From positions 1 to 56,494 of the forward strand of contig PWHN01000009.1 in the NCBI GenBank assembly GCA_003554945.1: DNA of 56,494 nucleotides, written 5' to 3'. Numbering within the stretch: position 1 is the first letter of the stretch; every line of letters starts with the position of its first letter. The stretch comes from a bacterium. GTDB lineage: Bacteria; T1Sed10-126. The translations under genes were made by a program, and so were the position numbers. Of the stretch, positions 6,805-10,005 are shown piece after piece. The notes under the pieces were generated by a model that made no database searches, was not told the origin of the DNA, and worked only from the letters and a program-made list of their open reading frames with translations.

Positions 6805-6905
6805 AACGGAGCTTTCTTTGTTTTTCTTTCCGTGTAGGTAAAAATTTTGGGAGGAATTAAAAAAACTTTCTAATCTAAAAATTCAAAAGAGTAGGATGAT
6901 CAGCT

Positions 6906-8315
6906 ATCAGTACAGAAGAAAAGACGCTTTTTGAGAAAATTTGGGACAAACACATCGTCCACTCGCCGGAGGAAGGAGCCGACCTTCTATACATTGACCG
7001 CCACCTCATGCATGAAGTTACTTCCCCACAGGCCTTCGACGGCCTGCGAGTAGCCGGGCGGCAGGTGAGGCGACCTGATTTGACGGCGGCAACAATGGAC
7101 CATAACGTCCCGACCGATCCCGACGACATGGAAATTCGTGATCCTGTCTCCCGGAAGCAGATCGAAACCCTGCGAGAAAACTGTAAGGAATTCGGGATCA
7201 AGCTCTTCGCACTGGAAAACAACGATCACGGAGTTATTCACGTGGTTATGCCCGAACACGGGATTATCCAGCCGGGAATGACGGTTGTCTGTGGAGACAG
7301 CCACACGGCCACCCACGGCGCTTTCGGCGCTCTTGCCTTCGGGATTGGCACGAGCGAGATAGAACACGTTCTGGCCACACAAACTCTCCCCCAGAACAAG
7401 CCTAAAACTATGGAAATCCGGCTGACCGGGCAACCGGATGATTCTATCGCAGCTAAAGATCTGATCCTTTACATTATTAGAGAAATTGGCACCAGCGGGG
7501 GAACCGGCTACGCAATTGAATATACCGGTGAAGCCGTGCAAAACACCAGCATGGAGGAACGGATGACGCTCTGCAATATGGCGATTGAAGCAGGCGCGCG
7601 CTCCGGTCTCGTCGCTCCCGACCAGACTACTTACGACTACCTGCGTGGGCTCCCCTATTCCCCGTCCGAGGAAGAACTTGATAAAAAAATAGCTGAGTGG
7701 GAAGAGCTTAAAACCGACTCTCCGGCGGCTTACGACCGGAAGGTCGAACTGCCGGTCGACGGTCTGGCTCCCCAGGTGAGCTGGGGGACCAACCCGGCAA
7801 TGACGGTCGACGTGAATGACACAGTCCCTGACCCAAGTAATTTGAAACGGCAGGAAGAGCGCCAGGAAGCTCAAAGAGCTCTCGAATATATGGGTTTAAA
7901 ACCGGGGGAACCAATTACCGGTATTGAAGTGGACACGGTTTTTATTGGTTCCTGCACCAACGGACGGCTTGAGGACCTGCGCCAGGCGGCCGAAGTTGTC
8001 GAGGGGAAAACAGTGGCTAATAACATTCGAGCTATGGTAGTCCCCGGGTCACAATTAGTTAAGAAACGGGCCGAGAAAGAAGGGCTTGATGAAATCTTCT
8101 TGGAAGCCGGTTTCCAGTGGCGTAACTCCGGCTGCAGCATGTGCCTGGCAATGAATCCCGACCGGCTGGAGGCGGGGGAACGCTGCGCCAGCACCTCCAA
8201 TAGAAATTTTGAGGGACGAATGGGAACCGGCGGACGGACCCACCTGGTCAGTCCCCGAACGGCAGCAGCAACGGCACTGGCAGGACATTTTGTCGACATC
8301 AGGAAACTACAATAA
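6906..8315 (+). CDS. leuC: 3-isopropylmalate dehydratase large subunit
   Basis: Aconitase-family iron-sulfur enzyme, large subunit of the leucine-pathway isomerase (2- to 3-isopropylmalate). Coding similarity to E. coli-type LeuC is clear from [12 protein letters not shown] and [20 protein letters not shown] onward. Cluster cysteines lie in FIGSCTNGR and in the SGCSMC segment; [22 protein letters not shown] is the signature. The first in-frame ATG (7008) would remove 34 conserved residues. In-frame TGA is at 6897-6899, and no ATG, GTG or TTG lies between it and 7008. I place the start at ATC 6906, giving 469 residues (E. coli LeuC: 466), with AGTAGG about ten bases upstream. A one-base indel after ATG 6896 is the alternative. 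leuD follows after 36 bases; leuA and leuB are absent. Confidence 0.85.
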
Positions 8316-8351: not shown

Positions 8352-8960
8352 ATGGAAGCTTTTGAAACTTTTGACGGCATAGTCGCACCGCTTGATCGAT
8401 CAAACGTCGACACCGACGCGATAATTCCAAAACAGTTTTTGAAGCGGGTCCGCAAGACCGGTTTCGGTGCTTATCTTTTCTTTGAGTGGCGTTTTGACGA
8501 AGAAGGCGAGCCAAAACCCGATTTTGTCCTCAACCGCGAACCCTATGACCGGGCTTCAATTTTACTTGCCAGGGAAAATTTTGGCTGCGGTTCGTCTCGC
8601 GAACACGCCCCCTGGGCGCTTAAGGACTTCGGTTTTAAAACTATTATTGCCCCTTCATTCGCAGATATTTTCTATAACAATTGTTTTAAAAACGGCTTAC
8701 TCCCGATTGAACTTCCCGCTGACAGGGTAAAACAGCTATTTGCGCTGACTGATAAGCATCAAGGCTACCGTCTAACCGTCGACCTCGAGAATCAACAACT
8801 TCGTGACGAACACGACCTGGTTATTGATTTCGGCGTTGACCCTGAGCGCAAGCGCCGCTTGCTGGAAGGACTGGACGAAATAGATTTAACTCTAAAGTTG
8901 GAGGATAAAATAGCCGCTTACGAGAACTCGGAGCGAGCTCCCGCTCCAATTATGAACTGA
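8352..8960 (+). CDS. leuD: 3-isopropylmalate dehydratase small subunit
   Basis: 202 residues, the length of E. coli-type LeuD (archaeal/Firmicutes short forms are about 165). The swivel domain motifs are visible: VDTDAIIPKQFLKR near residue 20, ENFGCGSSREHAPWAL near 75-90 and SFADIFYNNCFKNGLLPI near 104-121. It pairs with leuC to form the isopropylmalate isomerase. The ATG is preceded by GAGGAG with 8-base spacing. No leuA or leuB is nearby and repeat-rich DNA lies on the 5' side of the pair, so the rest of the leucine pathway must be elsewhere. Confidence 0.92.
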   Translation: MEAFETFDGIVAPLDRSNVDTDAIIPKQFLKRVRKTGFGAYLFFEWRFDEEGEPKPDFVLNREPYDRASILLARENFGCGSSREHAPWALKDFGFKTIIAPSFADIFYNNCFKNGLLPIELPADRVKQLFALTDKHQGYRLTVDLENQQLRDEHDLVIDFGVDPERKRRLLEGLDEIDLTLKLEDKIAAYENSERAPAPIMN

Positions 8961-9087
8961 CTCTTACAGTTTTTTTCACACCTTTTTACTTCAGTCCTCT
9001 TCTAAGATTTACCAGCTCGCGCAGCGACAAACAATAGAGTAATAAAACTAATTATTCAGTTTTTACAACTGAGGAGGAAATAATCAA

Positions 9088-10005
9088 ATGCAAAACGGTA
9101 AACTGGACAGGGAATTTGACAAACTAACTCCCACCTATCCTGACGAGCGTTTCCAATTGGAATACAGACCAGACGAATACACCTCGCGTATTCTGGACAT
9201 TATATCACCAATTGGGAAAGGACAACGCTGTCTGCTCGTTTCACCCCCAAAAGCGGGAAAAACCACGATACTACAGAAAATATCACGTTCTCTACATAAA
9301 AATCATCCTGAGGTCCAGCAACTGGCGCTTCTTATCAACGAGCGACCGGAAGAGATCACTGACTTCAAAAGAAACGCCAATGCCAGAGTGATGCACTCTT
9401 CCTCCGATAAAAATCCAAAGAGTCACGTTAAGACGGCAGAAAAGGCAATAAGACAAGCAAGAGAATCCCTGGTCAACGGTGATGATACCGTTATTTTGCT
9501 CGATTCAATTACCCGGCTGGCCCGAGCCTACAATCTTTTCGCTGATTCCCAGGGAAAAACCCTCTCGGGCGGTCTGGATTCAAAAGCAATGGAAAAACCC
9601 CGGCAGTTTTTTGGGGCCGCAAGAAATGTAGAAAATGGGGGCAGTCTGACAATAATTGGGACGGCGCTTGTTGAAACCGGTTCACAGATGGACCAGATTA
9701 TTTTCCAGGAATTTAAAGGAACGGGTAACATGGAACTGGTTCTTAGCCGACATCTGGCTGAAAGACGTTATTACCCGGCGGTCTCCATCAGCCAGTCCGG
9801 AACCCGAAAGGAAGAGGTTTTATTCAACGAAAACGAATACCGTATTGTTTCGCGATTGCGGCGCTACCTTGGCGAGCTTGACGATGAGCTGGCGTTGAGA
9901 TTTTTACTCGATCAGTTGGAAGAATATTCTTCGAACGGGGAGTTCCTGCAGGCGATTGCAACAGGTGAGCTGGATCTTAATCAAATAAGTCCTAACAACA
10001 ATTAA
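9088..10005 (+). CDS. Rho-family transcription termination ATPase lacking the N-terminal RNA-binding domain
   Basis: 305 residues; full Rho is about 420. The C-terminal RecA-like motor is complete: Walker A PPKAGKTT (53-60), Walker [16 protein letters not shown] (135-149), Q-loop [10 protein letters not shown] (156-165), R-loop SQSGTRKEE (235-243) and FKGTGNMEL. The N-terminal helix bundle and OB-fold that bind rut RNA are absent. The ORF begins just before the linker ([13 protein letters not shown], Rho LTPLxPxxRxxLE). A strong GAGGAGG site precedes the ATG, and only 127 bases separate it from leuD, so no lost N-terminus is hidden upstream. It may be a paralogue, a Rho needing a partner, or a functional short Rho. 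Convergent with the HD-GYP gene. Confidence 0.88.

Follow-up and report, generated by a model that had tools for sequence, protein, structure and literature searches.

The window analysed here, positions 1-56,494 of contig PWHN01000009.1 of a bacterium of the lineage T1Sed10-126 (assembly GCA_003554945.1), encodes a 305-residue protein that, judged from its sequence and phylogeny, is an ancient paralogue of the transcription termination factor Rho without the N-terminal helix bundle and the OB fold. In the textbook view, Rho must first capture RNA via this OB fold. The source genome (2.2 Mb, 93.5% complete) also encodes a full-length, OB-bearing Rho of 431 residues (G000:C104), which shares 52% identity with the 305-residue protein. 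The presence of this full-length Rho elsewhere in the genome makes it close to certain that the short protein is a paralogue residing beside the canonical enzyme. A Rho motor loaded by means other than the OB fold appears to exist, and OB-less Rho is a variant conserved across several unrelated bacterial lineages, with a mechanism that we infer from sequence comparison.

Domain content and conservation of the short Rho

Pfam recognizes only the ATPase domain in the short Rho, with no match to the OB-fold primary RNA-binding domain PF07497 or to the N-terminal helix bundle PF07498 (Rho_N). The protein matches positions 131-412 of the 413 positions of the NCBIfam model NF006886 (Rho) with 410.9 bits, passing the cut-off of 315, and scores 401.6 bits against TIGR00767, under the cut-off of 509.45. 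It is a RecA-type motor whose sequence begins at about residue 131 of E. coli Rho, which bears out the first-pass annotation of a core-only Rho lacking the primary RNA-binding domain, where the missing N-terminal part with its OB fold had been put at about 115 residues. An AlphaFold2 model has a mean predicted local distance difference test score of 91, with low values only near the Q-loop and the C-terminal end, and its best fold match in the Protein Data Bank is Rho 3l0o (template-modelling score 0.89, 54% identity).

The strong ribosome-binding site of its own that had been ascribed to the gene is indeed present, and an in-frame TGA overlaps it (Table 1), so that no N-terminal extension exists in this frame. 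The upstream leuD gene is intact and ends at 8960, leaving 127 bp in which no OB-like sequence occurs in any frame. An OB domain hidden upstream by a frameshift or sequencing error, already considered unlikely at first pass, is therefore excluded by the short interval, the lack of similarity in any frame, the in-frame stop and the conservation described below.

Our collection contains one further genome of the phylum, from a sister genus (G001). It also harbors the short Rho, whose gene is cut off at the 5' end where the contig begins, and the convergent HD-GYP gene that lies downstream in the window follows here as well. The two short Rho proteins are 81% identical, with a proportion of synonymous differences (pS) of 0.85, at which synonymous sites are saturated, and a proportion of nonsynonymous differences (pN) of 0.14; the neighboring HD-GYP genes are 41% identical. 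Because pS is saturated while identity stays this high and pN this low, the short Rho is, on the codon evidence, under strong purifying selection. By the same kind of comparison the canonical Rho core is more constrained still, with 93% identity between the two genomes over 111 codons; the corresponding 95 codons of the short Rho give 74%.

Table 1. Features of the short Rho gene in the window (residue numbers of E. coli Rho)
Feature	Position	Strand	Remarks
Core-only (OB-less) Rho paralogue, 305 aa	9088..10005	+	start codon ATG
Shine-Dalgarno sequence AGGAGG	9072..9077	+	10-nt spacer to ATG; read directly
In-frame TGA stop	9070..9072	+	overlaps AGGAGG; upstream of the ATG
Walker A, PKAGKT	9247..9264	+	K181, K184, T185
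Catalytic Glu-Arg	9340..9345	+	E211, R212; the preceding D210 is Asn
Phe at M219	9364..9366	+	Phe in 11/11 OB-less Rhos
Ser-Ser at T231-F232	9400..9405	+	invariant TF in canonical Rho
Val at E255	9472..9474	+	
Walker B Asp	9502..9504	+	D265
Q-loop	9544..9573	+	P279 to Asp, V284 to Thr; K283, G287, G288 retained
R-loop, TGSQM	9676..9690	+	K326 to Gln
Arginine finger	9805..9807	+	R366

Elsewhere at this locus, the leuC frame is open at 6900-7008, well upstream of the first listed ATG, and no ATG, GTG or TTG start is listed for this extension, pointing either to an uncommon start codon or to a problem in the sequence at this place.

Distribution and phylogeny of OB-less Rho

A survey of 386 genomes, in which second Rho copies were read individually, revealed two Rho genes in ~39, about one in ten, and an OB-less Rho in at least 11 genomes from at least eight families. 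Conservation of the short Rho, which the first-pass annotation had proposed to look for along with a full-length Rho in the same genome, thus extends from the sister genus to other lineages. In a second phylum (G029, G041, G042) the OB-less proteins have 306-342 residues. In a third (G070, G210; loci L051, L148, L132) they carry Arg-rich tails of 70-81 residues and are encoded directly 3' of glmS, with overlapping stop and start codons (ATGA) in G070. Further examples emerged from reading the second copies of G174, G326, G175 and G227. PF07497 was matched in none of 12 OB-less Rhos versus all six controls. A full-length, OB-bearing Rho accompanies the OB-less protein in the source genome (G000) and in G001, G029, G042, G070, G210, G175 and G227, and G174 and G326 possess a second, longer Rho known by its length rather than its domain content. 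No canonical Rho was found beside the OB-less one in G041, a genome that is 81% complete.

Two phylogenetic trees were generated, the first from 119 Rho cores including the five short Rhos then known, the second from 73 sequences including all OB-less Rhos and the OB-bearing second copies. The five short Rhos form one branch in the first tree (support 100/88), well separated from the canonical Rhos that their genomes encode, and group together again in the second (99/90). The second tree unites nine of the 11 OB-less Rhos in one branch (87/91) and places G175 and G227 in another, both outside canonical Rho. Loss of the OB fold on one or two occasions would fit this topology, in which deep support is weak. 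The 52% identity of the two proteins and the separate branch of the short one in both trees rule out that the short Rho arose recently by truncation of the full-length copy.

Canonical Rho (NF006886, TIGR00767) shares with the short Rho of the window the RecA-type motor, all ATPase residues and ~45-56% identity over E. coli positions 131-415, and provides its closest fold matches (3l0o and 8q3n); the window protein differs from it in lacking the helix bundle and OB fold and in its altered P279, F232, E255 and K326. NCBIfam also holds a second Rho found beside the canonical one, NF041509 (paralog_Rho2, transcription termination factor Rho, short form). The 360 positions of this model include the OB region, however, and the window protein matches only positions 78-359, with 355.8 bits versus a cut-off of 628. 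Since Rho2 keeps the OB fold, OB-less Rho is a further variant. The FliI/SctN and F1 ATPases belong to the same ATPase superfamily, but the two such matches in the source genome are only 27-28% identical to the short Rho, on which the Rho profiles score ~330 bits higher.

Other second Rhos in the survey (L137-L143 and L037 among them) have lost the helix bundle and kept a divergent OB fold, as in the Rho2 short-form type, and that of a 9 Mb genome (G028, locus L026) starts with a long poly-Gln and poly-Arg region followed by a degenerate OB fold. At the very end of the viral contig IMGVR_UViG_2909979649_000009, which carries a terminase, lies a 319-residue OB-less Rho with a Lys-rich tail (L175:3875-4834), probably in the host flank of a provirus. 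A phage collection yielded 22 matching records below 60% identity, many of them short and unannotated, and a plasmid collection 460, several annotated as rho. We found no OB-less Rho paralogue in the open literature searched; an earlier mention in the most relevant survey, Moreira et al. 2024 (NAR 52:8979), is possible.

Motor residues kept and altered

Among the 11 OB-less Rhos compared, K184, T185, E211, R212, D265, R269, R272, K283 (K/R), G287, G288, T323-S325, E334, K336, R353 and R366 (E. coli numbering throughout) are unchanged in every sequence. By this comparison, the window protein has an intact RecA motor, with all residues for ATP hydrolysis present and most ring-channel residues retained. 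The first-pass statement that all motor motifs are intact holds for the catalytic motifs and fails for the R-loop, where K326 is Gln, and for the Q-loop, where P279 is Asp.

T231S, loss of P279 and V284T also occur in most OB-bearing second Rhos, as they do in the window protein, and therefore mark Rho paralogues in general; within the OB-less set, T231 is lost in 10 of 11 sequences, and P279 is Pro in none of the 11 versus 123 of 125 canonical Rhos. F232 is lost and K298 replaced by Arg in all 11, and E333Q is present in most. A signature of OB-less Rho, consisting of the missing OB fold, loss of E255, P279 and F232, and K298R, is complete in the window protein. All 145 OB-bearing Rhos, whether canonical or second copies, have Glu at position 255, whereas none of the 11 OB-less Rhos does, which makes E255 a single-residue marker of the OB fold. 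R252 follows the same trend. On the simple reading of this correlation, E255 would serve the contact between OB fold and motor. Lastly, the replacement of R-loop K326 by Gln is confined to the window protein and its sister-genus copy.

RNA loading and the role of OB-less Rho

In place of the OB fold, the OB-less relatives have 22-175 residues with a net charge of +4 to +21, often rich in RG. In other Rhos, namely those with disordered N-terminal insertions from Actinobacteria and Bacteroides, such segments have a part in RNA binding (PMC13269538, PMC4499133), which makes it plausible by analogy that the basic tail is a non-specific RNA handle in most OB-less Rhos. The inserted Rhos, however, keep the OB fold, whereas in the OB-less relatives the tail stands in its place, and the window protein, with only ~9 residues ahead of its core, has almost none. 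The tail route is therefore closed to the window protein, for which loading by a partner, such as RNA polymerase, NusG or another recruiter, or assembly with subunits of canonical Rho would be more likely.

On balance, we favor with modest confidence the reading that an ancient OB-less Rho paralogue works beside canonical Rho, probably as a hexameric motor whose recruitment does not involve rut binding. It would still form a hexameric RNA-stimulated ATPase ring and would be unable to capture C-rich rut sites, with a basic disordered tail replacing the OB fold for non-specific RNA capture in most relatives. Loss of the Q-loop proline and the R-loop lysine suggests an altered grip on RNA, and the window protein is therefore probably no drop-in terminator at ordinary rut terminators. 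Two points weigh against this reading. With both K326Q and P279D, the window protein may have largely lost its coupling to RNA: E. coli Rho K326A loses ~75% of its ATPase activity, retaining about a quarter (PMC4499133), and E. coli P279S and P279L are unable to terminate, P279S also failing in RNA binding at the secondary site (PMC1950744). On the other hand, M. tuberculosis Rho functions with Thr at position 326 (PMC4499133). Moreover, no conserved neighbor names a partner: among the neighbors compared there is no conserved operon partner, glmS lying upstream in one lineage (G070, G210) and the genes being otherwise unrelated.

One alternative, to which we assign a minor share of the probability, is a regulatory subunit that enters mixed rings with full-length Rho, so that each hexamer has fewer primary RNA sites and termination is tuned or dampened. 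Canonical Rho occurs in nearly all OB-less genomes checked, the catalytic arginine finger and trans residues are retained so that interfaces could fit, the window protein is almost without a tail of its own, and the ring of E. coli Rho is able to open (PMC11829017). Conversely, the paralogues show joint changes at positions that do not vary in canonical Rho, among them E333 adjoining E334 and K336, a pattern that looks like an insulated ring, and the long basic tails of the relatives do not fit easily with a pure dampener.

We consider it rather improbable that the protein is a ring ATPase derived from Rho that acts outside transcript termination, be it in R-loop or mRNA remodeling or on a non-RNA substrate. 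Such a role would account for the absence of the Q-loop proline from all OB-less Rhos and the loss of K326 in the window and sister-genus proteins, given that the E. coli P279S and P279L mutants have a severe termination defect and cannot release RNA (PMC1950744). That the gene is a rho copy in decay, cut short or wrongly assembled, as the absence of the N-terminal 130 residues might suggest, is ruled out by conservation and has a negligible probability, considering the strong Shine-Dalgarno sequence and in-frame stop directly upstream, the strongly constrained sister-genus copy and the OB-less homologues in other lineages. The set of explanations offered at first pass (another loading route, a partner, or a paralogue with another job) still stands, now with a full-length Rho co-resident and the short Rho conserved.

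Returning to the reading of a ring recruited without rut binding, we tentatively propose, as a possibility well short of an even chance, that OB-less Rhos constitute a distinct ancient class of transcription motors, a "Rho without rut" that would exist beside canonical Rho in several phyla and depend for its recruitment on a basic tail or on a partner instead of C-rich RNA, with E255 as the core residue for communication between OB fold and motor. With a conserved motor-only Rho, natural proteins can be used to test directly what the primary site is for and whether the motor can be loaded without it, and the correlation of E255 with the OB fold singles out one residue at which to probe OB-to-motor communication. 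Genomes annotated with two rho genes may hold two different machines.
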